A stretch of DNA of 20,768 nt from a virus: positions 1-20,768 of the IMG/VR virus record IMGVR_UViG_3300017967_006367. The stretch is one strand, 5' to 3'. A program made the translations under genes and the position numbers. The notes beneath the pieces were generated by a model. It made no database searches. It was given only the letters and a program-made list of their open reading frames with translations, and had not been told where the DNA came from. Numbering within the stretch: the stretch's first letter is position 1; the number at the start of each line of letters is the position of its first letter. Shown in pieces: positions 1,895 through 20,768 of this stretch.

Positions 1895-1921
1895 CCGTTC
1901 CTTCAGTCGGCTTTTGCGTCC
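1895..1921 (-). repeat. Second copy of the aptamer 3' half (split glutamine-riboswitch-like element)
   Basis: Read on the minus strand, this 27-nt segment (GGACGCAAAAGCCGAC, then TGAAGGAACGG) aligns with the 3' half of the aptamer at 2113-2139. By eye, 24 positions match over 29 columns with two short gaps. Its GAACG (1896-1900) can pair perfectly with the extra CGTTC at 2106-2110, and its GGGA with TCCT at 2101-2104, as P1 and basal P2 would. It overlaps the last codons of the peptide gene and precedes the DUF4278-like gene. Whether it folds or binds ligand is unknown. Confidence 0.55.
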
Positions 1922-2100
1922 CTGTTATCAAAACATGCTGGATCAGTGTGCTCCATCCACTTAAGGATGATTTCAAACTTCTCAGAAGGAGTGAAGAGAG
2001 TAGAAGACTCCATTCCTTCCTTCAACCATTCATAGTCCTCACACCTAAGATGCATCTCAGGTGGAACATGCATGAATAGGACAGATAGCAATGATAACAT
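1903..2100 (-). CDS. Small 'downstream peptide' behind the riboswitch-like leader (56-65 aa)
   Basis: The first ATG after the aptamer (2100) gives 65 aa starting MLSLLSVLF. An internal ATG at 2073 gives 56 aa starting MHVPPEMHLRCEDYEW. Neither has a clear Shine-Dalgarno; the shorter form looks more like a cytoplasmic protein, so the start is unsettled. The body contains WLKEGMESS, a helix FEIILKWMEHTD, two cysteines and a charged end (NRDAKAD). The last residues are encoded by DNA resembling the aptamer 3' half, and the ATG follows an extra CGTTCATCC, so the gene sits between the two strands of a second aptamer copy. Genes after Downstream-peptide RNAs in Synechococcus and its phages are known to encode 17-100 aa peptides, matching this size. 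No functional family recognised. Codon use and density support a real gene, but a non-coding spacer cannot be excluded. Confidence 0.6.
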   Translation of the reverse strand: MLSLLSVLFMHVPPEMHLRCEDYEWLKEGMESSTLFTPSEKFEIILKWMEHTDPACFDNRDAKAD

Positions 2101-2105
2101 AGGAT

Positions 2106-2118
2106 GAACGATCCGTTC
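2106..2118 (-). promoter_or_regulatory. Competing hairpin between aptamer P1 and the start codon
   Basis: GAACG (2114-2118), the 3' strand of aptamer P1, can instead pair with CGTTC (2106-2110) across a 3-nt loop. This 5-bp hairpin ends 5 nt before the ATG at 2100. It and P1 are mutually exclusive, which suits a switching mechanism at translation initiation. Inference from base pairing only. Confidence 0.45.
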
Positions 2119-2158
2119 CGAGTCGGCTTACTTGCGTCCTCCTTTCGGGGGATGAACG
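2114..2158 (-). ncRNA. Glutamine riboswitch-like aptamer (glnA / Downstream-peptide class)
   Basis: The 45-nt minus-strand element starts CGTTCATCC (2158-2150) and ends GGAACG (2119-2114). CGTTC/GAACG forms P1. TCCCCC with GGAGGA around a GAAA loop (2137-2152) forms P2 with one mismatch. The conserved-looking GACGCAAGTA (2137-2128) and a small CCG/CGG helix follow; that helix would share G2118 with P1, so the exact register is uncertain. This layout (CGUUCA, hairpin, GACG-AAGUA, GGAACG) matches my memory of glnA and Downstream-peptide RNAs, known glutamine aptamers of cyanobacteria, with the second type also reported in a cyanophage. The predicted transcription start falls on or next to its first base. 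Confidence 0.78.
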
Positions 2159-4373: not shown

Positions 4374-7300
4374 TTAATCCAATCCAGAAATGTAAATATT
4401 TCCAGTAGTACTTATAGCTGCTACAGACGCATTTGTAGAAATGCCAATAGTACTTATTCCTATACCAGTAACTCCAACTAAATCAGAATCTCCCATTTTA
4501 CCAGAATACCACTTATTAATATTATCTTGACGTGCATATGCATAGTATCCATTACTAGCAATACCAACAACATAAGATCCGATTCCAACTATCTTATTAA
4601 TCTGGTTTCCTGCAAATGGATCTGGACTATAAACTCTTGTTAGTCCTGCCCCATAAGTTGGATATCCAGTTGTTCCATCAACACCAGTGAATGTTGAATA
4701 ATGAACTACATATTCTACATAAGGATCAGTGGTTGGATCGTATGCAGAACTTGGTGGTGTGAAGGCTGCACCACCAGTAACATTATACCTAGAATGTCCT
4801 GAGGTTACTACCAAATCAGAAATATATCCAGATGCATATTGACCTGATGTATGAGCAGAAGACCCAATATGTAAAGATGCATCACTAGGTCCACTTGCAG
4901 TAAAGGAACAATCTAAAACTCCATCTCTATAATAGTAAGTTGTTGCTCCAGACCTAATAATTGCATAATGAACCCATTGATTTGCAGTAAAGGGAGCTCC
5001 TCCACATCCACCGTAGAAATTATCACTCCTAAGCATAAATCCATTATTATAGACATTATACTCGAAGAAAGTACTACCTCCAGTATAATATCCCCAGAAT
5101 TCAAAACAGAAATCACCACTACCATTAGCATACTTAAATCCATCAAGTGTTACTTTCATATTAACAGAACCAGTTAAATCTAAACTAGTTGGTTGGAACT
5201 TAGTTTGTGTAGATGATAATGTAGGAGCATTTCCGTAAGAAGAAAGATATGGAGTATTTTCAGTATATGAATCGGTATATGGAAATAGAGCTGAGGAGAT
5301 TCCGAGCGTATCATCAGTTGTATGGATAATTCCATTTGATAATCCTATCATATTCACAGTTCCAATTCCACCAACTGCAGTTACAGTAGAACTAGAAGGA
5401 ATACTAGTTAAGTTAGAAACCCTTCCAAATTTATCATATACTGGAGTTGAACCAGCTGTACCAGAGAATGATGCTGCTACGGCAACATTTGAAGAATCAG
5501 GATCTGATAGTACATCAACAAAAGATGTTGGTGGAGTAAATGTGTTTCCTACTCCTGATCCTGAGGAATTGTATTTTGCTTTACTGTAGATCCTAAAATC
5601 TTGAATATATCCATAATATACATTAGCAGTTTCTTGATAACTACTGATCAAAAGTGGTCTATCTCCAGAATATGTTGGACTTGATGTAAATGTAGTTACA
5701 CCAACACCATCTTTATAAAGTCTAAAGGTACTGCCAATCTTTTCTACTGCCAGGTGGACCCAAGTATTAGTTGAGACGGCGCCCCACGAGTTTCCGTTGG
5801 AAACATTCCAAGAACCTGAGGCAGTTGTAGAATAATAGTACCAGGTCCCAGAACTCCAATAAAAAAGTTGGTCTGAATATCCATTGTAATAACTACCGAC
5901 CGTTACAACATATCGACCGCTAGCGGAATCTGAAGAATTAAACCAACCTTCAATGGTAAAATCACCAGACCCAATATTAGCAAGAGGATTATTAGTAATT
6001 TTTAATGTACCTGCATTATTGAAGAATACGCTAGATCCACCATATGCCGAAGAAGCAGCAGAAACGGCAATACCACCAGAAACAACATCAAAATCTACAT
6101 CAGTCAGAGACGTTGAAGCATATCCAACCGTATAGGTGGAAAAATCTGTAGTTATTCCAACTAAACTATCACTTCCAGTTAAAATAATTTTTCCAGATGA
6201 AGAAATTCCTACAGATGTAATATTACCTGCCGTTACTTCACTTAGACTAGAAGACTCCCAATCCACACCATTTGTGGAGATTCCTGACGTTCCAGTCGAA
6301 TCAAACAAAACATATTTACCACCAGTATAAATTCCAGAAGTAATATTGTTTGTACCAAAAATATTATAAATTACTGTTCCTATTCCACTTGATGTTAGAT
6401 TGTTGACTGATTTATATGATTCTCTCTTGAAATTACGAATATTTTCTAAGTTCGTTCCAAATCCAACAAATCCTCTATCACCGTATAAAACATATCCATC
6501 TGGTCCTTTTAGTGTTCCATTTAAAGGTTTATGGGTGTAAATTACATCGGTCGATGAATATTGATTAGTAATAGAATCTCCATATTCATAATATGGAACT
6601 TCATTCAATAATGCTCCTGTTGTTCCAACTCCAGCTTGAGCAAAAACAAGTCCAGTAACATCATATGTAAAATCAGTATTTGGAGATGCATATTGAAGTC
6701 CACCAGTACTCCACAAGTATCTTGAATCAATAGAGAATCTATAATATGTCGATGTGTCCAGTGATTCTGTGGTATATGTATCTTCAACTCCAGCAAGTGT
6801 TGCTGCCATATCATCAAAGGAAAATTCCATGCTATTGGTCCAAAGATTATTACCGACTAATTTAAATGTATGAATACCAACAACAGCAGGTTTAAAATAT
6901 CCTTCTATTCTAGCACTTTTTATCCATGGACCTCTTCCAGTTTGTTGTTGAGAAATTTGATCATACAATAGATATGGACTAGTGCTAATTGGAAATTGCA
7001 AACTATGGACATAGGATTTTCCAGAGAAAGCCCTATCAGTAACTCCAAATCCAGGAACACTACGGTATCTATCATCCATAAACTGTCTTTGAGTTTGTGT
7101 ATCATTATATACTGTATTAAATCCAATATCTTGAATAAGAATATCCTTTCCTAAAGAATTTCTATTTTGTGGTTGTTGACTTGTAATTATAAAAGCATCT
7201 TTATCAGGATCGTATTGAATATCCTTAAACTTCTTAGATGAGAATGATGTCAATTTCATATTATCATCAATATTAAGCAAATCTGTTGTAATTCCTATTC

Positions 7301-10300
7301 TATAATAACTTGATCCTGTTGCAACAGATCCAATAAGAATCCACTTATTATCTTCATATTTAATTTTGTTTATAGTTTTTCCAGTTTCACCAAGCAAACC
7401 AAAGAATCTTTGACCAATACTAGTCCAATTATATGGAGTCGTTGTTCCTAATCCAACATTTGGCATTCCTTTTGCATAATATGTGCTGTATAAGTTACTC
7501 CATCCAGCATAAGTATAACCATACCTATCATTACGCAACCATTCTTGTGTATTAGGATTATATGCGATAGTGTATCCACCATTTAATGGGGACGTATAAA
7601 CATTACCGCTGTTGGGACGAATCAAACTATTTCCAGCCCAAGATTTTCTAAACTCATCTGCACCAGAGTCTTCAGAAAATAGAGTGACACTACCTGGAGC
7701 AGTGGTAACAATTGTAGACCCAATCGAAACAATATCATAAAATTGAGTATTGTTTGGTGTAAAGAAACTAGTTATTCCTGAGGGAGTTCTTGAACTAAGG
7801 TTGGCTCTTCCTCTTCTAGAAGCTACATCCCAATAATTTCCATCAGAAGAAACTCCGACAAAACCATAATCCCCAAGAGCTACAAATTTATTATCAAATT
7901 TGTGAAGTTGTACTATATTTCCAGTAACAACAGAACTTAAATTTAAAGGATAAAAATAATCTTCTGCTCCATATGAATGATATGTGAGATCTCCATTAAA
8001 GTTTGACAATAAAGCCAAATTTTTATAATTAGAATCCCCATAGGCAACTTGAGAGGATGTAGGAACACTTGTATATCTTTTTGTTCTATAGTAATTATGT
8101 GTATTAGATCCTTCTGAACCAGTAAATGTTGCTGCTATACTTACAAAGTTTTTTAAAGAATCAGTTTCAATGTCATATTGAGAACTTGGGGGAGAAAAAG
8201 TAGAACCTTCAAAGGCAGATGGATATTTACATGTACCAGCATAAGATACAAAGTCTGAAACATAAGCTTGTGTGCCTGCACTAAAGCTATATATTGGAAG
8301 TCCGCCACCACCTATGTAGACTCTTTTTGGATAAACTTGTATAATTCTTTGACCTAGGTTAAACGTGCTAATTCCAACACCATCAATAGACCAAACGGCA
8401 TCATTTCCATCATATTGGAGACAATAATGATTCCAAGAACCAGTTGCAAAAGCAGGAATCGTCTTCGTGGAGTATGGGGTTTGACCTGCGTTTAAATATG
8501 AATAATTAGATCCAAATAAAATAAGTCCATTTCTAATTTGAATACCATCTATAAATCCACCAGTATTGCCCTGATATCTCCCACCATATGTAATGATAGC
8601 ACCTACAGTGTCAAAATAAGCCCAAAATTCTATCGTATATTTTCCATTGAGAGAACATGGCTCTGATGTAGATGGAAAATTGACATTTGTGTTGCTTTTG
8701 ACGCTAAGACTTCCATTTCCCCATTTATCTATACTTGGAGAAGCTGTAATTGTAGATACACCAGGATTGGTTAGTAATCCCGTGTTTATTCCAACCGTAA
8801 ATCCATATCCAACAGCACCATTATATATTTTAAAATCTTCGATTGATCCTGTTAGGTAATTTACTTTGTTATAATCACAACCAAGATAAGCGGGATTAGA
8901 TGGAGTAGCAGAAGTCCAATATGAAATACTATCAGCTGCCAATTGTCCTTCTTGAACACCATTTAAGTACAATGCTGTTGCATTTTCATCTCTTTGAATG
9001 CATACATGATTCCAAGTTCCGCCAGTAATTGTAGTAACACCAACTATGATAGCTCCATCTTGTACATCATATCCACTACTATTACTATAAACACTATAAT
9101 TCAAAAATCCATTTGTATCTATAAAAATTCTAGAATAAAATCCATTAGTAGCTGGTCTACTATCCCAAATAGTTTGTTTTGTATTTGCATCTGTTTCCAA
9201 GTAGAACCAAAATTCCATAGAAAAATCATCTTCAGGTCCTCTAGAAATTTTATTTCCTCTGTTGTCGGTAAAGGTTAAGTAATTATTTCCATTAAATGCA
9301 ACGGATGATTGATTAAACTTTGATGTAGTTCCAAATCCAACTTGAGGGTAGTATGCAGTATAAGTAGATACGGGTTGATTCCAAAAACCACTACTATAAG
9401 TAGTTAATCCGGAATTAACTCCTGTTCTTTTTCCATAATGTTGATATGAAAGTAAATCATTATATCCATCTCCAACATTAAAGTTGGCAAGTATTTTTAA
9501 TTTTTCATCAGTAGAATCACCAGAAATTGTCAATGTAGACGTTGGAGGTGTAAAATTGGTAGAATATCCTGCATTATATCCATTATAAACTCTCAGTCCA
9601 TTCATAAATCCATTTAGTTTGGATGCATAGTTATATTGAGCACCTACAATTGCACCAAATCCTCCAGATGACCGTGCTGTTGGGTGATATGTAAAATAAT
9701 CATTATCATCAACATAACTACTACCATCTTGTGTTCCATCCAAGAACATTTTAGTAACGCCATTCGTCCTTGCAACGGCAATATGATACCATTGACCAGT
9801 ACTTAAAGTTGATCCAGTGATTCTTGCTGCGGAGTTGACATAATAGGTCAAGACACCAGAATTTGTATAAATCACTGGATAAAATCCATTTGCATTTGGA
9901 CGTTGATCCCACAACACAACAGTTCCAACAGTATTAAAGTATACCCAAAATTCTATTGAAAAATCACGAGTTGAAAAATCTAAATCATCTGGTTGTGGGT
10001 AAATTGATAAGTAAGAATTCCCATCAAATTTTATCGATGAAGATCCTATTTTAGACGTTGTACCAATACCAACGACTCTATTGCTATAAAAGACATTGGT
10101 ATTGAGTGTATTTCCATATCCAATTGGATTTGATATAACTCTAGTGCTTATTCCAACATGTTTACTGCAAGCATATGCAAAAGTATCAACTCCATTCACA
10201 TCTTTTACATCCATTCCTCTAACTGAATGTACATATGAGGTGACTAAAAGTGCAGATGGTGGTGTGGTATTAAGCAATTCGACCCAATTATCCTTATCAT

Positions 10301-13300
10301 TTTGTGAGTTTTGTTGAGGATAATACTTCGCATAACCTTTATAAACCTGGAAATCTTGAATGTATCCATTAAGAGCATTTGATCCATTCCAATAGTTTCC
10401 AATTCGCATTCCAGGTCCATCATAACTACCAGAATCACTATAAACACCCTGAATTTTTCCATTCTGGTAGAGACGTGTAATACCATCCTTTCTACAGAGT
10501 GCTACATGATTCCACTTGTTTAGATTACTTCTACCTTGTAAATCGTATCTTGGGTCTGTTGTGATTCCAAGAGAATCATTAGATCCAAAAGAAGCACCTC
10601 CAATATTCTGTCCGTAGATTCTATATCCACCATTTAAATAGAAACCAAGCGTAGCTCCAGATGCGGCAATACTATGAATATTAGGTCTTATTCTTGTATT
10701 ATTGTCAACTCTTCCATCAAATAAATATTCAGTCCCAGAAGTGTCTGTAGTATTCTTATAATAGAAACATTCAATTGTATAATCTTCTTTTCCAAAATAA
10801 AACGCAGTCGTTGCTGTTCCAGTGATAGCAGAAGTTGTACCATTAAAGAGTGCTATACCCCTTTGAGCATTTGCTTCATAAGCAATATTTGTAGTACCTA
10901 CTGGGGTGTCTTCAAATGTTGATGAAATAACAACGTATGAATTATTTGGGTCTGTATTGATATCATATTGAGATGTTGGAACCTGAATTGTGTTGCCAGC
11001 ACCAATAGCATAATTAGCAACACCTTTCCATACAACCAAATCATCAAGATTTGCATTCATATTATAAGAGTTTGAAAATACAAAATCTCCCATGACAATG
11101 GTGGATGAGACATAATTATTAGAATCACTATAACTCGATCCCTCTTGAGTTCCATCAACAAATAATCTTGTAACTCCTGAATTTCTTTGAATACAAATAT
11201 GATGCCATCCACTCGCAACTGTCATATTTGTGGTGCCAGTAATTCTGTCTCCACTTGACACAAAATATCTCACCGGTCCCTGATTATAAGAATAAATCGT
11301 TGGATAAGCACCATTTGTTCCTGCTGGTCTTTGGTCGTATATTGCGTTATAACTATTTTGACCCGACCCTTGAGCATGGTAGAAGAATGAAATAGTAAAA
11401 TCATCCGTTTCAAATGCATTAGATGGTCCAGTTAATCTACTATTAGAAGCACCAGTAAATCTAACACTTGATGTACCAAACTTATAAGTGCTGATTCCGA
11501 TGGTAGTAGCGGATCCAGCGTTACCATAAAGTGTACTTGTAATTACAGTAGACCCAATACCAGCATTAACATCGTGAAGATAAGTTGCAATACCGGCACT
11601 ATTTGTTGCGTTTCTATCAGTACTTACAGATGTATTTGTTAGTATTGTTGCTGTGGTTCCAATACCAGCAGATAACTCATAAGTATTAACATAGGTTAAT
11701 GAATTTTCTGGATTTACAGTATTCAGTTGTGCTGAGAATGTAAGATACTGGAAGTAATCAGCAAGTTTTGGTGGAGTAAAGTTCTCTGTATACTTTGCGT
11801 ATCCTTTGTAGATACGAAGGTCATTCATGTAACCATTAACATCTCCGCCTGTTCCATTAAAACTTCCAATTCTCAAATCCCCACTTGCATTTCCAAAAGT
11901 AAATGTGCTTGATGCTGTCTGTTTTAGCACACCATCCAAAAATATTCTACAATCGTCTGATGAATCTCTTGTTACAGCAACATGATACCATCTTCCAGTT
12001 GTAACCGAATTATTTCCTGTATTTACAACATTTGAACTACCATTCCATAAACTAAAATAATTATTACTAGCATTTAGATATATTTGTCCCTTATTACCTC
12101 CAGATTGTGAAAAAGTAATCGGTGATGGATGTTGACTATCTAAAACAATTGTGTTTAGATATATCCAAAACTCTACAGTAAATTCACCATCTAATGTAAA
12201 ATCTGTACTTGCTGGTATTGTTAGATTTTGACTTACCCCACTAAAAGAAGCACTAGAACCATAATACTTACTGACTGTGGTTGCGATTCCAACACTATTA
12301 TTATTTGTTACAGTCTTATTAAAAGAACTTCCATTATAAGAAGTCATGATACCAGAAATATCATTGACATCTCTAGCAGTATTCAAAGGGAGACATAATA
12401 CAAGACTATCTGGTTCTAATGAGTTATTTGGATTAACTGGAATCGAAACTCTGTCAATATTAACATATGGATTCTCAGTTGCAAATATACTTCCATTAGT
12501 ATATCCAGAAAAATATTTACCAGATGTAGAAATTCCAGACACCATATATGAGGCACCGGAACAGTTAATGGGTGACGATGGATTCCCAAAACCAGAAGAA
12601 TACCAGTCTTCACCATCATAGGATACTTCTACATATGAACGATTAGTTGTATTATACTTACCCAAAACATAATAATCGGTGCTTCCTACTCCAGAATAAA
12701 CATAAGAAGTATAATTATTAAAGATTGAGTTTTCAGTTTCATGATCTGCTGCTTTCCATGATGTGCCACCATCAGTTGAAATTGCTACGGAATTATGTGT
12801 ATATGCAGATTGACCACCCCAATCATAAGCAATTACCCATTTATCTTTTCCAGCATTATAAGATGATGCTACTGGTGAATAGTACGCATAATAATTTGTA
12901 TTTCCACCTTTTAAGTATCCATTATATAAAACTGACATATCTGGCTTCTGGAATGTGGCAGTATTGTCTTCTTGAGAACCAGAAACCATCGCAGAAGTAT
13001 AACCAAAAGATGAAACTCTTTGAACACCACCATGACCCAAATTTGTATATGTTACAAAATCTGTTGTAATTGCAACTCTAGATATTCCAGTTCCCGAATT
13101 GTAGTGTGCCGTGATAATATTCTTATTACCTGGACCAGCAGAAATATGATTTGGAGAATATACTGTAAAATAATCTTTAATTTTTATTGGCTTACCGTCG
13201 GGTTCTTTAAACTCAGTCCACTTCATTCCAATATTACTATCCAAAGAAAATGAAGTGCTGGTACTAAAAGCTACTGGTTGATAAAAATAGTTCGTTCTAC

Positions 13301-14114
13301 CACCATATCCCTTCATTGCTACAACTTTATCAGTTAGAGCAATTCCCGCAACTGGTGCATATGAATAAGAAAGTCCTGTTAAATTACTAGGATAAGGATC
13401 TACCTGTTCGCCAAAAATTCTATAATAATCGGAATCTGATACTTGTTGCCAACCTTCCGCATTAGTAATATTATCAGTAAATAAAATATTTCCAAGGTTT
13501 GGAAGATACCATTTAGAGTCTTCTTGATTAAAAATTATTTTGTAATTATTATCATCAGGTTGCCATGTAGCAAGACTTGAATTTTTATCAAAAGTTGAAA
13601 CTGCTGGCTTAGAAGAAACTCTACTTCTACCAAATCTTGCATTAGTCCAGTTAACCAAGTCACTAGAGTATGCAAGACGACTTGCTCCAGCCACAACATA
13701 GAGTCCTTGACCATACTCTATAGACCAGATTCTAGCGGACCCCCAATTAATACTAGATACATTTAATCCAGCAGTTACTTCAGTAAATTGGTCTCCATTA
13801 CTACTATAATATAATTTTCCATCATTTGTTCCTGCTAACAAAATTCCATTTTTATTTTCTACACAAGTAAAATTACCATCAATTACAGATGGTGATTCAA
13901 TCATCAAATTATCAGTAGAATTAAAGGTTTTATAAAGACCTATTCCAGATGCTATGTAAAGTCTTGCATTAAAAATAGTTGCATCATTAATTACAACCGA
14001 ACTAATAGTTGAAATGCCAGATAAGGCGTCACTATAACTACTATTGGCCCCCAGTTTTCTGAAATTACGTAGTCTATTATCTACATTGTTAAAAGAACTA
14101 CCTTTAATGCTCAT
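4374..14114 (-). CDS. Giant tail-fibre/adhesin with eight LamG-like domains (3246 aa)
   Basis: The N-terminal part (about 1-560) is built of BNR/propeller-like strands with an exact Asp-box, STDGGTSW, near residue 445 and looser relatives such as YSSDLVNW and SYDGEDW. Eight LamG/concanavalin-like domains follow at about 630-785, 890-1045, 1095-1265, 1370-1520, 1615-1765, 1815-1975, 2705-2865 and 2990-3130. Each has F-T-I-E-F-W, W-x-H-x-A-x-x-R, 'LDG' and a closing D-x-R-I-Y-x-G with TPP. Between domains 6 and 7 lie further propeller-like segments (about 2020-2380 and 2500-2700) and a PA14-like stretch (GYFKPAVVGIHTFKL, about 2390-2495). LamG and PA14 folds bind carbohydrates, so recognition of the host surface is likely, extracellularly on the virion. 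The gene follows the other fibre gene by 12 bp with AGAGAG before the ATG. No enzymatic signature is clear. The tail-fibre role is inferred from architecture and context. Confidence 0.9.
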   Translation of the reverse strand: MSIKGSSFNNVDNRLRNFRKLGANSSYSDALSGISTISSVVINDATIFNARLYIASGIGLYKTFNSTDNLMIESPSVIDGNFTCVENKNGILLAGTNDGKLYYSSNGDQFTEVTAGLNVSSINWGSARIWSIEYGQGLYVVAGASRLAYSSDLVNWTNARFGRSRVSSKPAVSTFDKNSSLATWQPDDNNYKIIFNQEDSKWYLPNLGNILFTDNITNAEGWQQVSDSDYYRIFGEQVDPYPSNLTGLSYSYAPVAGIALTDKVVAMKGYGGRTNYFYQPVAFSTSTSFSLDSNIGMKWTEFKEPDGKPIKIKDYFTVYSPNHISAGPGNKNIITAHYNSGTGISRVAITTDFVTYTNLGHGGVQRVSSFGYTSAMVSGSQEDNTATFQKPDMSVLYNGYLKGGNTNYYAYYSPVASSYNAGKDKWVIAYDWGGQSAYTHNSVAISTDGGTSWKAADHETENSIFNNYTSYVYSGVGSTDYYVLGKYNTTNRSYVEVSYDGEDWYSSGFGNPSSPINCSGASYMVSGISTSGKYFSGYTNGSIFATENPYVNIDRVSIPVNPNNSLEPDSLVLCLPLNTARDVNDISGIMTSYNGSSFNKTVTNNNSVGIATTVSKYYGSSASFSGVSQNLTIPASTDFTLDGEFTVEFWIYLNTIVLDSQHPSPITFSQSGGNKGQIYLNASNNYFSLWNGSSNVVNTGNNSVTTGRWYHVAVTRDSSDDCRIFLDGVLKQTASSTFTFGNASGDLRIGSFNGTGGDVNGYMNDLRIYKGYAKYTENFTPPKLADYFQYLTFSAQLNTVNPENSLTYVNTYELSAGIGTTATILTNTSVSTDRNATNSAGIATYLHDVNAGIGSTVITSTLYGNAGSATTIGISTYKFGTSSVRFTGASNSRLTGPSNAFETDDFTISFFYHAQGSGQNSYNAIYDQRPAGTNGAYPTIYSYNQGPVRYFVSSGDRITGTTNMTVASGWHHICIQRNSGVTRLFVDGTQEGSSYSDSNNYVSSTIVMGDFVFSNSYNMNANLDDLVVWKGVANYAIGAGNTIQVPTSQYDINTDPNNSYVVISSTFEDTPVGTTNIAYEANAQRGIALFNGTTSAITGTATTAFYFGKEDYTIECFYYKNTTDTSGTEYLFDGRVDNNTRIRPNIHSIAASGATLGFYLNGGYRIYGQNIGGASFGSNDSLGITTDPRYDLQGRSNLNKWNHVALCRKDGITRLYQNGKIQGVYSDSGSYDGPGMRIGNYWNGSNALNGYIQDFQVYKGYAKYYPQQNSQNDKDNWVELLNTTPPSALLVTSYVHSVRGMDVKDVNGVDTFAYACSKHVGISTRVISNPIGYGNTLNTNVFYSNRVVGIGTTSKIGSSSIKFDGNSYLSIYPQPDDLDFSTRDFSIEFWVYFNTVGTVVLWDQRPNANGFYPVIYTNSGVLTYYVNSAARITGSTLSTGQWYHIAVARTNGVTKMFLDGTQDGSSYVDDNDYFTYHPTARSSGGFGAIVGAQYNYASKLNGFMNGLRVYNGYNAGYSTNFTPPTSTLTISGDSTDEKLKILANFNVGDGYNDLLSYQHYGKRTGVNSGLTTYSSGFWNQPVSTYTAYYPQVGFGTTSKFNQSSVAFNGNNYLTFTDNRGNKISRGPEDDFSMEFWFYLETDANTKQTIWDSRPATNGFYSRIFIDTNGFLNYSVYSNSSGYDVQDGAIIVGVTTITGGTWNHVCIQRDENATALYLNGVQEGQLAADSISYWTSATPSNPAYLGCDYNKVNYLTGSIEDFKIYNGAVGYGFTVGINTGLLTNPGVSTITASPSIDKWGNGSLSVKSNTNVNFPSTSEPCSLNGKYTIEFWAYFDTVGAIITYGGRYQGNTGGFIDGIQIRNGLILFGSNYSYLNAGQTPYSTKTIPAFATGSWNHYCLQYDGNDAVWSIDGVGISTFNLGQRIIQVYPKRVYIGGGGLPIYSFSAGTQAYVSDFVSYAGTCKYPSAFEGSTFSPPSSQYDIETDSLKNFVSIAATFTGSEGSNTHNYYRTKRYTSVPTSSQVAYGDSNYKNLALLSNFNGDLTYHSYGAEDYFYPLNLSSVVTGNIVQLHKFDNKFVALGDYGFVGVSSDGNYWDVASRRGRANLSSRTPSGITSFFTPNNTQFYDIVSIGSTIVTTAPGSVTLFSEDSGADEFRKSWAGNSLIRPNSGNVYTSPLNGGYTIAYNPNTQEWLRNDRYGYTYAGWSNLYSTYYAKGMPNVGLGTTTPYNWTSIGQRFFGLLGETGKTINKIKYEDNKWILIGSVATGSSYYRIGITTDLLNIDDNMKLTSFSSKKFKDIQYDPDKDAFIITSQQPQNRNSLGKDILIQDIGFNTVYNDTQTQRQFMDDRYRSVPGFGVTDRAFSGKSYVHSLQFPISTSPYLLYDQISQQQTGRGPWIKSARIEGYFKPAVVGIHTFKLVGNNLWTNSMEFSFDDMAATLAGVEDTYTTESLDTSTYYRFSIDSRYLWSTGGLQYASPNTDFTYDVTGLVFAQAGVGTTGALLNEVPYYEYGDSITNQYSSTDVIYTHKPLNGTLKGPDGYVLYGDRGFVGFGTNLENIRNFKRESYKSVNNLTSSGIGTVIYNIFGTNNITSGIYTGGKYVLFDSTGTSGISTNGVDWESSSLSEVTAGNITSVGISSSGKIILTGSDSLVGITTDFSTYTVGYASTSLTDVDFDVVSGGIAVSAASSAYGGSSVFFNNAGTLKITNNPLANIGSGDFTIEGWFNSSDSASGRYVVTVGSYYNGYSDQLFYWSSGTWYYYSTTASGSWNVSNGNSWGAVSTNTWVHLAVEKIGSTFRLYKDGVGVTTFTSSPTYSGDRPLLISSYQETANVYYGYIQDFRIYSKAKYNSSGSGVGNTFTPPTSFVDVLSDPDSSNVAVAASFSGTAGSTPVYDKFGRVSNLTSIPSSSTVTAVGGIGTVNMIGLSNGIIHTTDDTLGISSALFPYTDSYTENTPYLSSYGNAPTLSSTQTKFQPTSLDLTGSVNMKVTLDGFKYANGSGDFCFEFWGYYTGGSTFFEYNVYNNGFMLRSDNFYGGCGGAPFTANQWVHYAIIRSGATTYYYRDGVLDCSFTASGPSDASLHIGSSAHTSGQYASGYISDLVVTSGHSRYNVTGGAAFTPPSSAYDPTTDPYVEYVVHYSTFTGVDGTTGYPTYGAGLTRVYSPDPFAGNQINKIVGIGSYVVGIASNGYYAYARQDNINKWYSGKMGDSDLVGVTGIGISTIGISTNASVAAISTTGNIYISGLD
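4725..6000 (-). repeat. LamG-like domains 7 and 8 of the giant adhesin
   Basis: Two LamG-like units (about 5520-5998 and 4725-5145) separated by a propeller-like linker. Both close with FTPPxS followed by a D-x-x-(S/T)DP-type linker and 'A(S/T)FxGxxG', as after domains 2 and 6. They differ from units 2, 4 and 5 by lacking the 'D-x-RP..NG' strand. Confidence 0.75.
8185..12230 (-). repeat. Tandem LamG-like domains 1-6 of the giant adhesin
   Basis: Six consecutive LamG-like units about 150-170 aa long, one every 230-270 aa (first strands near 12180, 11400, 10785, 9960, 9220 and 8630). Units 2, 4 and 5 form a closer group: all have a 'DQRP/DSRP...NG' strand, and 2 and 4 share V-T-(R/K)-(L/M)-F-(V/L)-D-G-T-Q-(E/D)-G-S-S-Y. 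This points to later duplication within the gene. Confidence 0.8.
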
Positions 14115-14126
14115 ATTTTAATCTCT

Positions 14127-17100
14127 CTATTGACTATCTGCGATTGAAAGGATACCCCTTATATTTAGTCCACCGTCAGAAGAAACAAATTGAATAACAT
14201 CAGTTCCAGAAGAAGTTAGAGTAGGAGCAACACCACCAGGCCACTTAATTGCAGAGTCCCAAGTCACAGTATATGCACCACCATTAGTTAATTCTAAAGT
14301 ACCGAACCATGCCTTGTCTGTCTGCAATCCACTGAATGATATTGTATAATTTCCAGTAGCAGTATATCTAAAGTAATTATATCCTCCGTTGAGTACAGTA
14401 GCCCCATTAGCAGAACCGCTATCAACACTAGAAATTTGTGATTGTACTGTAAGTCCTCCACTAATATTCAGAGTTCCAAAATCAGCAACAGGAACATCAA
14501 GAGCAGATGCTGACAGTTTTCCAGCAACTTTGGTATCACTTTCAATATCGAAAGAAGCACTCTTGAGAGCAAACTGTAAGATTCCATAATATCGTGCATT
14601 ACTAATATTAATATAAAGTTTATCATTAGCAGGACTTATGAACAAACTTGGGGCATTTTGAGTAAAATAAGTTCCTTCTAGATAATTATCACCATATCCA
14701 TATCGTTTATCAGTGGATCTATATGTACTAACACGTCCACCAGATTTTGCAGAATATAACATATATGGAACTGAGAGGTCCCATTCATATATTCCAAAAT
14801 AAGGTGGACTATTGTACATAGAAGTTTTATACATCTTTGTACCATCAGAATTAAATACAAAGTCCCACGTATTATTACCCCAGTATAAATTTTCATCATA
14901 AGAATAATCTAACCATACTGCATCATTATACATAGTATCAATTTCCCAAGGTGTTGAGAGTTGATATGTATGCAGTCTATCATTACTATTGTCTACAAAT
15001 GTAAGTTCGGTTCCACTAGGATTAAATACCATTCCAGTTGGAGAATTTACATTACGATTACTATTAGACGCTCGGTATCCTTTTGTTTTGGTCGGTTTCG
15101 CAGAACTTATATCCCAGTTACGAGATAAGTCAAATTGGAACAGAGTGTAAGTAGCTTGATAATTAGCAATATACATTCTTGTACCATCTCTTCCAAACTC
15201 AAGTGTATAATCATTTGCGTTACCATTCGTAATGGCGTTTAGGTAAACCTCAGAGTGTCTTGCAGCAGTTGAAATTTCCCATGGTGTAGACAACTTATAC
15301 TGAATAACAGTATCATTAGGGTTATCTAATACGTACATCCACTCACCATCAGGATTAAACCTAACCTCAGATGGAAGAGTACTAGTTGTTTGGAAATATG
15401 TGCTGACACCAGAGTGTGTCTCAATATCCCAAGCAGTAGAAAGATCATACTGCGCTACTCTATCATTTGTGGACCCAACAACATACATTTTAGTACCATC
15501 AGGTTTAAATGTAAGTCCAGTAATGGCAGTATCAGTAACAGTAGTTGATATTCCTGCATTAGTTGCATATCTAATATCGTATGCACGCGAGTATGGAATT
15601 TCTAATTGATATACTTTATCGTTTTGGTTTCCACCAAAGTATACCTTAGTACCATTATTATTCCATGATACACCTCTTGGATCATTATCTATTGCATTAA
15701 TGTACCAATCTCTGGATACCTCTCTTGCAGTAGAAAGATCCCAAGGTGTTTCCATTTCATATGGATAGAGGGCGTAATCAGTATCATTCAAAACATAGAA
15801 TCTCTTTCCATCAGCAGCAATTCTGATACTCCTAGGATCGTTTACGTCATTACCAGTATCAAAGGTTCCTACTATGAATTCATGTGTTAAAGTTTTAGTT
15901 CCAATATTCCATGGTGAAGATAATGTATATTCATGAATACTAGAAGTTGTATATGATCCATCATAATTAGTCAGATACATCTTTGTACCATCAGGTTTGA
16001 ATTCAATTCCAGTGTAATTGTCACCAAGATCATAAGCCTGATCATAAGTAGCGGTGCTTATTTCCCAAGGTGTTGTTAAAGTATACTCATGAATGTCTTG
16101 ATCTGTATCATTATCTTCAACAACATATAGTTTTAATCCATCTGGTCTAATGTAGAATTTGTTGTCGTTAGTATTATCATCACTTCCAGTTTCATAAGTA
16201 TCTAACCATCCCTGTACATTTTGTGCGGAGGAAAGATTATATGCAGTTGACAATCCAATTGCACCAAATCCATTAAGATTTGAATTCCAGGTAAACAGAA
16301 GTTTATTTCCATCAGAACTCATAAAGATGTCATCTGGAGTGTTACTAAACTGAGAAGGTGTGGAAATACTAGTTGTCAGAGAAGCAGTTCCGACATCTGC
16401 AGGTGTTGATAATGTATACTGATAAATCTTATCATTCTGTTGTCCGAGAACATACATCTCACTATTATCATTATTAAATGTAAGTCCAACAGGTGTATTA
16501 TCCTCACTAGTGACACTAAATGATGTAGTTAGAGATGCGGTACTTACGTTCCATGGAGTAGATAGAGTGTACTGTTGCACAGCATCTGCAGAGTATCCAA
16601 CCAGATACATGGTTGTACCAGCACCAGTAATATGAACGGCAGAAAGATTAGTGTCTTCAGAAGATGCATCAAAACTGGTTGTAAATCCTATACTCAGGAT
16701 ATTCCAAGGATCTGTAGCATCATACTGATAAACGTAGTTTGTAGATTCATCGGTAATGTAGAACTTAGTACCTTCATCATTTACAAACAATCCAGATGGA
16801 GTAGTCAGTTCAGTTAAATCATCAGTTTGTCTCCATGTATATTTTGCAGTTCTGATATCAAATGGTGTTGATAATTTAAACTCATACAGAGCATCAGATG
16901 TATTACCCAACATGATAACCTTATCACCAGTTGGACTATAAACAGAACTCTGTGCTACGGTATCAATAGGTGTTACACTATAAACTTCATTATCTCTAGA
17001 AATTGTTTCAGGACTTAATTTATTCTTATTAGATATTTTTCTAATATCAGCAGTTCCGTGTACAACTAAAGATTCTTGCTCAGGATATTCACTTCTTCCA

Positions 17101-20100
17101 ATAGAAACTTTTCTAAGGTTAGAAGTATCTGCTTCCAATAAGTTAGAACGTAGTCTTCCATTAACAGAAACTTCACCATTTAAATCTATTTCACCAGTAA
17201 TAGTTGTCTTTTCATGAGGTATCTTGTAATTAAATATGTAAGCATCAATTGAGAAAGCAAGTTCTGTATCACCTTTGATAAGTCGCATTCCATTGAATAT
17301 ATTTGACTGAGCAAATTCATTTGGATAATTAACAAATTGATTTGTAGTTACTCTAGCACCATGAAGTTTGTATGGAGATGCTAATTTAAACTCATGAACT
17401 CCTTGCTGATAAGTGCTACCTGTTATTTGTGCGTACAAGTATCTACCATCAGCACTAAGAGACATTGCGTATACCGCAGTACCAATAGAGGTGGTATAAT
17501 CATTAAGAATGTCAATATAACCTCTGTTCATTACACGAGCAGAAGAAATATCATTCACTCTTGACATCTCAAGTTTCCATAATCTATCAAGAGTTGATAT
17601 GGTTGTGATGAAGACTGTGGAATCATCTTTATAATAGATTCCAGTTGCATAAGATTCAGCATCAAAATGATCATCAATCCTAAGGAATTTTACTGTACTA
17701 GCATCAAATGCTAATGCTGTAGATACATCCCAAGCAGTTTGAAGTTCGTACTGCAATAGATTAGCATTATATTCACCAGTCAAATACAATATCTTACCAT
17801 CAGTACTGAACTCAAACACTGTTGGGGTATACTCGGCCAGAGGACCCCAATATTGATAGGATGTTGAAGCAGGTGTGTATCTGGTGTTAAGTAATTTTTC
17901 GTGAGTAGCAGTTGATATATCCCAAGCAGAAGATAGTGAATATTGATAGAGATATCCAGTATCTCTACCAGCAATATACATCTTGGTTCCGTCTGACTTA
18001 AACTTAACATCACGGGGATCATAGTCAGTGGAGGTTCCTGGTCTATGAGTATCAAAACTGGTTGAAGAAGTTATTGATGTAACATCCCATGCAGTACCTA
18101 AAACATATTCCTTGACTTGATGGTTGGTTTCATCAGTAACATAAAGTTTTAATCCATCAGATTTAAAGGTTAATCCACATGGTATATAATCAACTTGATA
18201 TTCACCAGCATATTCATAATCAACAGGATCCCATGCCTTTCCAAGCATGTCACGCTGAACAATCTTATATGAAGGATTAGCATTGTTTTGGACTGAATAG
18301 TAATATCTCAATCCATTTGGTCTAAATGTAATTCCAAACGTATCTGGATTGGTGTTATTAAATTCACGATTATTCAGTTGTACGCAATCACCAGCGAATT
18401 TTAAAGTATTGATAGACCATGGTTCTTTAAAGTCAAATTCTAGGATATAAGTAGATCCACCAATATATAATTTACGTCCGTCTTTGCTAATATCCAGAGT
18501 TCTTCCAATATCAGCATTTAAGAAGAAATTGCCATAATCAAAAGATCCAACTTTGCTTAATGATTTAATATCCCATGGAACAGAAGCATCAAATTCATGT
18601 ACTATATCGGTGTTGGTAGTACCACCAGAGAGAACATATAATTTAGTTCCATCATATTTCCATTTTACAGAATCAACATTATAAAGAGCAAAGTTATAGT
18701 TTGTATAAACTCGTGTCAGATTTGAATATGAGTTGAAATCCCATGGAATAGAAAGATCCGCTTGATATAAAACGTTACCACTATTGGAGTAGGTTAATTT
18801 AGTTCCATCAGCACTAAAGTCAAATCCATAGAGATAAGATACATAATCATCTTCAGAATCAGTTATTTTACGATTACTGACATTGGTAAGTTTTGCAGTT
18901 GATATATCCCATGCAGTTGACAAATCAAATCTAGTTACATATTGAGTAATTTGATCGAGTACAAAGAGGTAATCTCCATAAGTAGAGAAATGAATAGTAC
19001 ATCTTTGTCCTAGGTCATAATCACCTACAAACGGTTCAAGATTGAGAACTTTTCCGGTATATTTTACGGTAGTTATATCCCATGGAGTTGCAAATTCCCA
19101 CTCGTAAACTCCCATATTATATGGTGTAATTTCCCCAAAAGTATTAGAGATGCTAATCTCAACCGTCCATAACTTCTTACCATCAGATTTTATTACTACA
19201 TCCCCAGGTACATTAATATCTGCTGCAGCGTTAGTACCAGTTTCTTTTGAAAGAGTTGCAGTACTTACATCCCAATCAGTGGATAAAGAATACTGATAGA
19301 TTTTATCATTCTGGTTGCCAAGAAGATACATCGTATCTCCACCAGTGCTAAATCCAACAGATACTGGTACATTATCTTCGGTCGTTGTTTGGAAACTAGT
19401 TGTAAATCCAGCAGTATTTAATTCCCATGGTGTAGATAAAGTGTATTGATATACACCCTCATATCCAGTACCTTGATCGTTAGTAACATAGAAGTAATCA
19501 CCACCAGTACTAAATCCAATAGATTGTACAGATCCGTCACCAGAAGTACCACTTCCCTCTCTGAATTGCAATCCATCATATGGATGTGCTGTCGTTAAAT
19601 CCCATGGTGTATCAAGTTTCCATTGATAGATAACACCTTCATCCTCGCTACTGCCAAGGGTGGCAACGTACATATATCTTCCATCATCATTAAATTTTAA
19701 CCCACTCCATGTTACATTGGGATCATATCTTCCAAATAGTGCATAATTTAAATGTACACGTTGAGCATCACTATATGCATCACCAATGTTATTACCATTA
19801 GCACTAATATATGGAAGATTTGCATTACCAGCAACAGTTAAATCATCATATAGAGATGAAGTAGTACCAATTCCAAGATTTGCAAATGTAGATCTCCCTT
19901 CAACATCTATTGCATTATTAAATTTAGATCTACCATATACTTCTAAACCATCAGCAATAATATTCTTTTTCCAATCAAATTTAATCTCAGTTAATGAAAC
20001 GTTAGTATCGTCAGAAACAATAATCCCATCTTCATCTTTTGTTAGGATGAATCCCCGTGGACCGTCAACATACTCAGAAATTTTAAAAGTATCAGCAACA

Positions 20101-20768
20101 ACTGCTGTAATTGGACTCCATCGTTCAGCACATTCCCATTTTACTATCCAAGATTGATTATTATTGCCATTATAATAGAAGACATATAATCCATATCCAT
20201 CAGCAGAAAACTCTGATGCATATACATTAGTCAAATATACTGGATCCTTATGATATGACGAAAGATTATCAAGTCCAATCTGTTTCGCATGAGTATAGTA
20301 GGTAGCAGTAGTAACATCCCATGGAGTCGATAACTCGAGTTGCCAAAGAACGTCTTTCTGATATCCAAGAATAAACATTCTTGTTCCTTCTGGATTAAAT
20401 CTTATTCCACTCGGGGTTTGATCAAACCCTCCCACATAAAAATACTTACTATATGTTGCACTTGATACATTATCTTTTATGGAAAGATCATATTGGTAAA
20501 CTACATCATTAGTTTGTCCAACAACATACATCGAATATCCATCATTTCCAATCACAACATCCCAACATTGTGTCTCTTGTGATGCAAATGGATGGTCGGT
20601 ATCTGCACCAACATTAAACGTTGTAGTGAGTCCAGCACTAGCAATGTTAAATGCTGTGGTAAGTCCATACTGATATACAGTATCATTGGTATTACCAATA
20701 ACATACATTGAGGTGCCGTCACTATTAAACGACAATCCATTTACACCTGTTTCTATAGAGACACTGAA
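14127..20768 (-). CDS. Giant propeller-repeat tail protein, N-terminus beyond the window (at least 2213 aa)
   Basis: The frame is open to the last base, so the true start is outside. It consists of about 35 repeats of 45-60 aa with the pattern 'G-hydrophobic-x-F-x-x-DG-(T/x)-(K/x)-MYV...ND-x-V-x-QY-x-LST-(A/P)-WD-(I/V)-STA', typical of beta-propeller blades (YVTN/WD40-like by shape). The repeats fall into an incomplete first block (about 4-5 blades), a block of 15 (about residues 350-1185) and another of 15 (about 1270-2075). Each block is followed by a shaft-like stretch such as LGIGTTSSLYDDLTVAGNA (near 300), and the protein ends in a C-terminal domain near 2100-2213 (TVTWDSAIKWPGG.APTLT..GTDVIQFVS) of a type seen in phage tail fibres. 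It is probably a virion surface fibre or tail appendage. It is co-oriented with the LamG adhesin and 12 bp from it, likely one late transcript. Fold and role are inferred from repeats and context. Confidence 0.9.
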   Translation of the reverse strand, partial: FSVSIETGVNGLSFNSDGTSMYVIGNTNDTVYQYGLTTAFNIASAGLTTTFNVGADTDHPFASQETQCWDVVIGNDGYSMYVVGQTNDVVYQYDLSIKDNVSSATYSKYFYVGGFDQTPSGIRFNPEGTRMFILGYQKDVLWQLELSTPWDVTTATYYTHAKQIGLDNLSSYHKDPVYLTNVYASEFSADGYGLYVFYYNGNNNQSWIVKWECAERWSPITAVVADTFKISEYVDGPRGFILTKDEDGIIVSDDTNVSLTEIKFDWKKNIIADGLEVYGRSKFNNAIDVEGRSTFANLGIGTTSSLYDDLTVAGNANLPYISANGNNIGDAYSDAQRVHLNYALFGRYDPNVTWSGLKFNDDGRYMYVATLGSSEDEGVIYQWKLDTPWDLTTAHPYDGLQFREGSGTSGDGSVQSIGFSTGGDYFYVTNDQGTGYEGVYQYTLSTPWELNTAGFTTSFQTTTEDNVPVSVGFSTGGDTMYLLGNQNDKIYQYSLSTDWDVSTATLSKETGTNAAADINVPGDVVIKSDGKKLWTVEISISNTFGEITPYNMGVYEWEFATPWDITTVKYTGKVLNLEPFVGDYDLGQRCTIHFSTYGDYLFVLDQITQYVTRFDLSTAWDISTAKLTNVSNRKITDSEDDYVSYLYGFDFSADGTKLTYSNSGNVLYQADLSIPWDFNSYSNLTRVYTNYNFALYNVDSVKWKYDGTKLYVLSGGTTNTDIVHEFDASVPWDIKSLSKVGSFDYGNFFLNADIGRTLDISKDGRKLYIGGSTYILEFDFKEPWSINTLKFAGDCVQLNNREFNNTNPDTFGITFRPNGLRYYYSVQNNANPSYKIVQRDMLGKAWDPVDYEYAGEYQVDYIPCGLTFKSDGLKLYVTDETNHQVKEYVLGTAWDVTSITSSTSFDTHRPGTSTDYDPRDVKFKSDGTKMYIAGRDTGYLYQYSLSSAWDISTATHEKLLNTRYTPASTSYQYWGPLAEYTPTVFEFSTDGKILYLTGEYNANLLQYELQTAWDVSTALAFDASTVKFLRIDDHFDAESYATGIYYKDDSTVFITTISTLDRLWKLEMSRVNDISSARVMNRGYIDILNDYTTSIGTAVYAMSLSADGRYLYAQITGSTYQQGVHEFKLASPYKLHGARVTTNQFVNYPNEFAQSNIFNGMRLIKGDTELAFSIDAYIFNYKIPHEKTTITGEIDLNGEVSVNGRLRSNLLEADTSNLRKVSIGRSEYPEQESLVVHGTADIRKISNKNKLSPETISRDNEVYSVTPIDTVAQSSVYSPTGDKVIMLGNTSDALYEFKLSTPFDIRTAKYTWRQTDDLTELTTPSGLFVNDEGTKFYITDESTNYVYQYDATDPWNILSIGFTTSFDASSEDTNLSAVHITGAGTTMYLVGYSADAVQQYTLSTPWNVSTASLTTSFSVTSEDNTPVGLTFNNDNSEMYVLGQQNDKIYQYTLSTPADVGTASLTTSISTPSQFSNTPDDIFMSSDGNKLLFTWNSNLNGFGAIGLSTAYNLSSAQNVQGWLDTYETGSDDNTNDNKFYIRPDGLKLYVVEDNDTDQDIHEYTLTTPWEISTATYDQAYDLGDNYTGIEFKPDGTKMYLTNYDGSYTTSSIHEYTLSSPWNIGTKTLTHEFIVGTFDTGNDVNDPRSIRIAADGKRFYVLNDTDYALYPYEMETPWDLSTAREVSRDWYINAIDNDPRGVSWNNNGTKVYFGGNQNDKVYQLEIPYSRAYDIRYATNAGISTTVTDTAITGLTFKPDGTKMYVVGSTNDRVAQYDLSTAWDIETHSGVSTYFQTTSTLPSEVRFNPDGEWMYVLDNPNDTVIQYKLSTPWEISTAARHSEVYLNAITNGNANDYTLEFGRDGTRMYIANYQATYTLFQFDLSRNWDISSAKPTKTKGYRASNSNRNVNSPTGMVFNPSGTELTFVDNSNDRLHTYQLSTPWEIDTMYNDAVWLDYSYDENLYWGNNTWDFVFNSDGTKMYKTSMYNSPPYFGIYEWDLSVPYMLYSAKSGGRVSTYRSTDKRYGYGDNYLEGTYFTQNAPSLFISPANDKLYINISNARYYGILQFALKSASFDIESDTKVAGKLSASALDVPVADFGTLNISGGLTVQSQISSVDSGSANGATVLNGGYNYFRYTATGNYTISFSGLQTDKAWFGTLELTNGGAYTVTWDSAIKWPGGVAPTLTSSGTDVIQFVSSDGGLNIRGILSIADSQ
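14540..16960 (-). repeat. Propeller-blade block B (15 units)
   Basis: Fifteen successive blades run from SSVYSPTGDKVIMLGN to the divergent SLFISPANDKLYIN unit; fourteen carry a recognisable '(L/A)-x-x-P-W-x-(I/V/L)-x-x-A'-like edge and the last ends in ASFDIES. The unit count is the same as in block A. Boundaries are approximate. Confidence 0.75.
17215..19720 (-). repeat. Propeller-blade block A (15 units)
   Basis: Fifteen successive blades run from SGLKFNDDGRYMYVAT to the divergent GMRLIKGDTELAFSI unit, with the edge motif 'ST-(A/P)-WD-(I/V/L)-x-(T/S)-A' in most. The block is followed by the shaft-like stretch TTITGEIDLNGEVSVNG. Boundaries are approximate. Confidence 0.75.

Follow-up and report, generated by a model that had tools for sequence, protein, structure and literature searches.

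The element read on the minus strand at 2158-1896 of the window, as we term the whole 20,768-nucleotide stretch of DNA analysed here, which is a fragment of a T4-like cyanophage genome, had originally been predicted to comprise two tandem glutamine aptamers. Comparison with its relatives indicated that the two are probably a single composite glnA-type aptamer made from merged duplicate copies, a reading to which we assign a probability of about 0.7 jointly with the nested-gene mechanism set out below. The evidence for this feature (1896-2158) consists of covariation, the outcome of a targeted-scan prediction and matches of the Rfam model RF01739 to compact homologues. The original prediction was upheld in so far as a peptide gene lies within a structured arm of an RNA of the glutamine-riboswitch type and has its start codon in the stem of that arm, while a second aptamer with a P1 of its own is probably wrong.

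Pairing of the duplicated strands

Every string and coordinate previously given for the duplicated strands was correct on the minus strand, to which all window positions below refer. CGTTC occurs at 2158-2154 (a1) and again at 2110-2106 (a2), GAACG at 2118-2114 (b1) and again at 1900-1896 (b2), and AGCCGACT is present both at 2128-2121 (x) and at 1912-1905 (y), the second copy of the GGACGCA..GCCGAC.. half lying at 1921-1896. Read 5' to 3', the order is a1, a GAAA hairpin (2152-2137), GCAAGTA, x, b1, a2, an ORF (2100-1903), GACGCA, y, GAA (1904-1902), b2 and then a DUF4278-like gene. The peptide gene does lie between the strands as reported, with its ATG at 2100 and its TGA at 1905-1903, and the basal TCCT/GGGA pairing (2104-2101 with 1922-1919) is real. 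What had been missed is that this helix extends as the 8-bp UGUUAUCA/UGAUAACA (2099-2092 with 1930-1923) and runs through the start codon.

A search with the window peptide identified homologues (48-100% identical) at 36 IMG/VR loci and in 41 phage records, and the recurrence of the same layout in nearly all of them shows that the arrangement is not due to chance. After pattern scans for the 3' half and the joining segment, at least 190 distinct elements were parsed; as the parser tolerated few mismatches, the conservation counts given below are biased in favour of the common forms. The joining segment of one variant matched 421 of 50,697 phage records, in 414 cases over most of its length. 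Among cultured phages, a nested gene was present in S-M1, S-RIM8, S-RIM32, S-SM2 and P-SSM7 and a compact form in S-PM2. Only six of the bacterial and archaeal contigs searched contained the joining segment, and these are suspected to be phage sequence in the assemblies.

Two folds were compared. In the tandem fold (T), a1 pairs with b1 and a2 with b2; in the composite fold (S), a1/b2 form P1, x/y form P3 and b1/a2 form P4. According to S, copy 1 would supply the P1 5' strand (CGUUC, 2154-2158), P2 (2137-2152, a compact GAAA hairpin in the window), AGUA (2129-2132) and the P3 5' strand (AGCCGACU, 2121-2128), and copy 2 would supply the P3 3' strand (AGCCGACU, 1905-1912, pairing with two A.C mismatches), GAA (1902-1904) and the P1 3' strand (GAACG, 1896-1900). 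The two spare P1 strands would close on each other as P4 (2106-2118; pair probability 0.94-0.98 in the window fold), and the P2 of copy 2 would become a side arm, P5, in which UCCU-A-UGUUAUCA (2092-2104) faces UGAUAACAGGGA (1919-1930; pair probability 0.85-1.0). This proposed assignment of strands from both copies to one core is supported by covariation.

The first sign came from four loci in which b1 and a2 had changed jointly to CAACG/CGTTG with a1 and b2 unchanged. Fold S predicts that a changed b2 goes with a changed a1; a scan for b2 altered at its first base recovered AAACG elements, and every one of these with a1 in view carried CGTTT. One further pattern scan for variants of the P1 3' strand recovered none. 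Over the 190 loci, P1 was CGTTC/GAACG in 178 and CGTTT/AAACG in 8 (a1 was not found in 4), and P4 was GAACG/CGTTC in 179 and CAACG/CGTTG in 11; neither helix contained a mismatch. Positions 2158-2154 and 1900-1896 covary from C-G to U-A (8 loci) and positions 2118-2114 and 2110-2106 from G-C to C-G (11 loci), in both cases without exception. The covariation of 2106-2110 with 1896-1900 in related cyanophages, by which a P1 belonging to the second aptamer was to be recognized, was not seen in any of the 190 loci. Variation in one of the four P1-type strands is confined to 12 loci. Of these, 11 break both tandem P1 helices, and in the twelfth one helix is left with a G-U wobble and the other with a mismatch. 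All 12 are of the short-P3 type, and the P1 variants look like members of one clade, so that they represent few events.

The two folds were also counted on alignments from which the slots had been cut out. In the short-P3 type, S accounted for 99.8% of cells as paired and included five pairs with two-sided change, whereas the two helices special to T showed no two-sided change and eight unpaired cells. In the long-P3 type, to which the window belongs and in which the P1 and P4 strands are invariant, eight pairs of S had two-sided change and none was found in the helices special to T. Within P3, two-sided change affected five of its eight pairs in the long type and one of its five in the short type, and the observed pairing energy of P3 was reached in 1 of 5000 permutations of swapped distinct strand combinations. 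Of the cultured phages with a nested gene, S-RIM8 and S-M1 have the short P3 and P-SSM7 has the long one. Covarying x/y combinations between the repeats included AGTCG/CGACT, AGTCA/TGACT, GGACGG/CCGACC, AGCCGACT/AGCCGACT, AGCCGACA/TGCCGACT, AGCCGACG/CGCCGACT, GGACGACG/CGCCGCCC and AGTTGACT/AGGCAACT, among others. The basal pairs of P2 covary as well (U-A/A-U/C-G and C-G/U-A/A-U). Furthermore, S joins the AGUA of repeat 1 to the GAA of repeat 2 in a complete loop E, whereas T leaves half of it in each repeat.

For the short-P3 type, this covariation refutes tandem pairing as the conserved fold. For the type found in the window, the composite fold would rest on the covariation of P3, the split loop E and homology; the x:y pairing taken by itself would also be compatible with tandem aptamers that touch through a kissing contact. 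The computed energies for the window at 25 C favour neither fold (S, -112.5; T, -114.1; unconstrained minimum, -130.8 kcal/mol), the model including neither loop E nor ligand energy. Two separate tandem glutamine aptamers, the second with a gene in its P2 loop and possibly with a kissing contact between x and y, are nevertheless very unlikely. Their strands are identical in sequence, so that such a fold could form in most loci, the composite has no computed energetic advantage over it in the window, RF01739 matches the second repeat alone in two compact loci of the long type (L110 and L111), and some glnA RNAs have been reported in tandem (PMC2864571). Against this, neither tandem P1 shows a compensatory change and the twelve variant loci disrupt one or both of them, GAA is missing from repeat 1 and AGUA from repeat 2, which leaves neither with an entire loop E, and the covariation of P3 links the two repeats.

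Protein genes in the arms

The arms P2 (slot 1) and P5 (slot 2) contained either a hairpin of about 10-60 nt or an insert of about 140-250 nt, a bimodal distribution with no intermediates. Slot 1 was compact and slot 2 held an ORF in 118 elements, both held ORFs in 34, both were compact in 22, and an ORF in slot 1 was combined with a compact slot 2 in 12. In the window, slot 2 carries an ORF of 65 aa (1903-2100; phrog_13397, E=9.3e-31); the slot-1 ORFs of other phages have about 60-70 codons. Among the long inserts, 198 of 202 had an ORF starting at the expected place, and in the first set of loci the ATG lay 10-11 nt after the start of the CGTTC of the P1 or P4 strand in nearly all cases. The stops fall within the core: TAG at its boundary with GACGC (TAG|GACGC), TAA in GCAAGTAA for slot 1, and TGA or TAA in CGACTGAAGG or CGACTAAAGG for slot 2. 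The UGA of the window ORF overlaps the last base of P3 and the GAA of loop E, and the change from GAAG (152 of 190 loci) to AAAG (38 of 190) also turns this stop into UAA. On comparative grounds, P2 and P5 are shown to be slots for a short hairpin or a small gene that starts in the arm helix and stops in the core.

With end codons excluded, pN/pS was 0.34 (the cluster of the window peptide) and 0.27 in frame and 0.92-1.30 in the other frames, values of about 0.3 against about 1 which indicate that the nested ORFs are truly coding. Since the duplicated stretch is itself coding in the window, it might be argued that an ordinary peptide gene simply lies beside one riboswitch and that its second set of strands is kept by coding alone. 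This coincidence is exceedingly improbable, and conservation through chance or coding alone was rejected with the help of early-stop and compact homologues. In 10 distinct slot-2 ORFs (e.g. those of L012, L025 and L027) translation stops at TAG before GACGC and the GGACGCA..CGACTGAAGGAACGG half is kept, so that a constraint on the RNA and not on the protein must preserve it, and compact homologues retain the same half with no ORF at all.

The bases that follow CGTTCA, AUG included, pair with those preceding GACGC, for example as TCTTATG/CATAAGA, TCTCATG/CATGAGA and TCCCATG/CATGGGA, and as TCCTATGTTATCA/TGATAACAGGGA in the window. Own arms paired better than swapped arms in slot 1 (-9.7 versus -5.0 kcal/mol) and in slot 2 (-10.1 versus -7.3 kcal/mol), and also within peptide subfamilies (-10.2 versus -7.2 and -10.5 versus -9.6 kcal/mol), with none of 2000 permutations reaching the observed mean in any of these comparisons. 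In the ensemble predicted for the window, P4 and P5 are nearly always formed; the A of the AUG is bulged and its U and G are paired. The 5' strand of P3 pairs with the start of the downstream gene in the minimum-energy fold of the window, own combinations being slightly better than swapped ones, which may only follow from the two RNA types having different downstream genes.

The nested ORFs formed two main clusters, each nearly confined to one slot, with exchanges: family B occupies slot 1 of L021 and L162, and family A slot 2 of L142. Correspondingly, phrog_6471 matched slot-1 ORFs, and phrog_504 and phrog_13397 mainly those of slot 2. Each of the aligned peptide families has two invariant cysteines about 35 residues apart, and for two families AlphaFold predicted a two-helix hairpin between the cysteines with moderate confidence (pLDDT 77 and 79). 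Short helical hairpins match anything in structure comparison. No solved structure related by sequence to the window peptide was found, and a Pfam search gave a weak match below the cut-off for this peptide and none for the other nested peptides. A relative at L036:701-883 (48% identical, with a different C-terminus) is without flanking aptamer strands, and the peptide gene therefore also exists free of the RNA. Near the ORF at 6564-6764 of L193, three modules are chained, the first compact (x=AGCCGACTC), the second with an ORF (x=AGTCAC) and the third compact (y=AATGACT), the first x having no partner y.

The loop of P4 is a third gene slot of the same RNA. In L231 (2256-2834), a homing-endonuclease-like ORF of 192 aa (phrog_314, E=9e-9) sits exactly between CAACG and CGTTG, and such an ORF is also found in the P4 loop of L237, L265, L270 and L272. 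L122 has a scar, a short insert that opens with the same CGTAAGCAATTAGAATG in a GAACG/CGTTC background.

Relation to the glutamine riboswitches

The check proposed with the original prediction, a run of the Rfam glnA and Downstream-peptide models, gave no match in the window at the Rfam threshold; at a lax threshold RF01739 scored 27.9 bits against a gathering score of 35 and covered 2160-2110 only. The type-2 glutamine riboswitch (RF01704) was rejected as the better class because it scored lower in the window (21.4 bits), and the compact loci are likewise reported as RF01739. In four of nine sampled loci with a compact slot 2, RF01739 exceeded its gathering score, in two by aligning the whole composite as one aptamer across both repeats with a 38-nt insert in P3 (L051, 43.6 bits; L065, 39.6 bits) and in two on the second repeat alone (L110, 39.4 bits; L111, 37.1 bits). 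For the six cultured phages, Rfam showed no match above threshold for the element.

Structural features of RF01739 are present. P1 (CGUUC/GAACG) adjoins P2, with covariation in P1 (8 loci, short-P3 type) and in P2, and a loop E flanks the covarying P3, its AGUA half being invariant in both alignments (A1 and A2) and matching the AAGUA of the model. Two complete aptamers with a P1 each, the mark of a tandem riboswitch, are absent from the short-P3 type; in the long type of the window the strands are invariant, and each repeat lacks half of loop E. One position of the core differs from the RF01739 consensus, GACGC standing for GACGG. This replacement, the change of GAA to AAA in 38 of the 190 loci and the scores below threshold in the window and the six cultured phages would fit an RNA that binds a ligand other than glutamine, or one that binds no ligand and serves as a scaffold for timing or protecting the translation of the nested gene. 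We consider this quite unlikely, as compact forms agree with RF01739 in AGUA, P1, P2 and P3 at scores of 40-44 bits and a DUF4278-like gene lies downstream, as it does with glutamine riboswitches of the hosts.

The composite aptamer shares with the type-1 glutamine riboswitch (glnA, RF01739) the order of P1, P2, the AAGUA/GAA loop E and P3, as well as a DUF4278-type gene downstream, and differs from it in GACGC, in a hugely extended P3 branched into P4 and P5 from a degenerate second copy, and in that P2 and P5 can carry protein genes. With type 2 (Downstream-peptide RNA, RF01704) it has in common a related core, an occurrence in marine cyanobacteria and their phages and an association with small peptides; however, the peptide gene lies downstream of the RNA there (PMC2864571) and inside it here. 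Tandem riboswitches (glycine; tandem glnA) also have two homologous aptamer-like units in a row, which in the present case are interdependent, their strands being swapped into one composite core. Group I introns likewise hold protein genes in loops of a structured RNA, as the homing-endonuclease ORF in the P4 loop recalls, whereas the common slot genes here encode small two-cysteine peptides and have start codons that are part of a helix.

In the 2010 description of the glnA RNAs (PMC2864571), tandem copies are noted and the sister motif has its peptide genes downstream of the RNA; cyanophage genome papers list glnA RNAs from Rfam matches. The S-SCSM1 report names PhotoRC-II and wcaG as predicted cis-regulatory RNAs; this phage carries a peptide of the window type together with the joining region, and the absence of the element from that report is as expected if nested genes hide it from Rfam. 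No precedent for an ORF located within an aptamer emerged from phrase searches of the literature, the primary glutamine-riboswitch papers of 2011 and 2018 lying outside that search. A merged double aptamer with protein genes inside its arms is new by these searches, although its priority is not certain.

Folding, translation and neighbouring genes

A riboswitch is usually understood as a sensor that precedes a gene. In this element genes lie inside the sensor, repeatedly, in three different loops and in a very common group of ocean viruses, and the clamping of the start codon in a stem suggests that the RNA is either a sensor or translated, not both at once. Entry of a ribosome at the nested AUG would require P2 or P5 to be opened, and a stopped ribosome would cover P3, loop E and P1 and thereby keep the aptamer from closing; conversely, the folded RNA would bury the AUG, the more so once glutamine stabilizes P1, P3 and loop E. 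Folding of the aptamer and translation of the nested gene should therefore be mutually exclusive, and to this extent the competition originally suggested on inference was retained. At low ligand, or with the transcript still being made, ribosomes would enter at the AUG, translate the peptide and stop inside loop E beside P1.

In the tested cyanobacterial glutamine switches expression rises upon glutamine binding (PMC6316151); by analogy, the ligand-bound state would turn the downstream DUF4278-like gene on, and high glutamine would favour this gene and shut the nested one, a single RNA thereby reporting glutamine as a choice between two products. As P5 is predicted to be stable even with no ligand bound, silence may be the default state of the nested gene and not a response to glutamine, and in the window nested translation may occur mainly during RNA synthesis. 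We regard as evenly balanced the full proposal of a distinct class of riboswitch with nested genes in its aptamer, whose start and stop codons are part of the helices and the core, in which ligand binding and nested translation would be mutually exclusive, a nested peptide or a downstream regulator would be chosen and the loops would be exchangeable gene slots in cyanophages.

The fold and the nested genes could also be real with the nesting being mere compact packaging in permissive loops, without any link between ligand and translation. In some loci the loop of P4 contains a homing-endonuclease ORF, from which it is evident that the loops accept genes, and compact versions without nested genes exist. 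Homing endonucleases also sit in loops of group I introns. We nevertheless think packaging unlikely, as the two sides of the start-codon helix match each other beyond family resemblance and the ORFs start at a constant offset of 10-11 nt, which goes beyond what a passive insertion would require. Regarded as a composite with nested genes, the locus is a natural test of the competition between a ribosome and the folding of an aptamer, and three cyanophage peptide families (phrog_504, phrog_6471 and phrog_13397) are now tied to an RNA of the glutamine-sensor type. The element can escape standard RNA searches, and the extent of glutamine sensing may therefore be underestimated in published surveys of cyanophages.

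A sigma-70-like promoter (2166-2194) can be read from the window, with TTGACT (2194-2189), a 17-nt spacer and TATAAT (2171-2166), the -10 box ending 7 nt upstream of the first CGTTC of the aptamer. Among 164 distinct upstream regions, 105 have their best -10-like hexamer ending 7-8 nt ahead of that CGTTC, and the predicted transcription start should lie at the aptamer or adjoining it. Because of this position of the -10 box in most loci, leaders of only about 11 nt with no Shine-Dalgarno (SD) sequence are predicted for the slot-1 genes.

Downstream of the aptamer, the DUF4278-like (YRG) gene (1716-1862; SD GGAG, 1873-1870) is presumed to be the one controlled by the riboswitch. It matches phrog_5049 (E=3.7e-11), and its match to DUF4278 (E=0.00077) is weaker than the curated cut-off of Pfam; genes with DUF4278 are known to accompany the glutamine riboswitches of cyanobacteria (PMC6316151). 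Directly after P1 and ahead of the SD sequence there is a possible small hairpin (GGAU/AUCU, 1895-1883), and similar short hairpins follow P1 in many relatives. Between b2 and the SD sequence of the downstream gene, a recurrent element, ACGGATC-hairpin-AAGGT with a variable stem, was seen in L008, L046, L050, L057, L071, L077, L084, L094, L108, L113, L148, L294 and others; it is possibly part of the expression platform.

A few genes further downstream, the window encodes a ThyX thymidylate synthase (749-1426; Pfam Thy1, E=9.6e-49), and a thymidylate synthase is also found near the element in S-PM2, S-RIM32 and S-SM2. Two very large ORFs of the minus strand, at 4374-14114 (3246 aa) and 14127-20735 (2202 aa), contain many repeated domains and perhaps encode, at a guess, tail-fibre or adhesin-like structural proteins.
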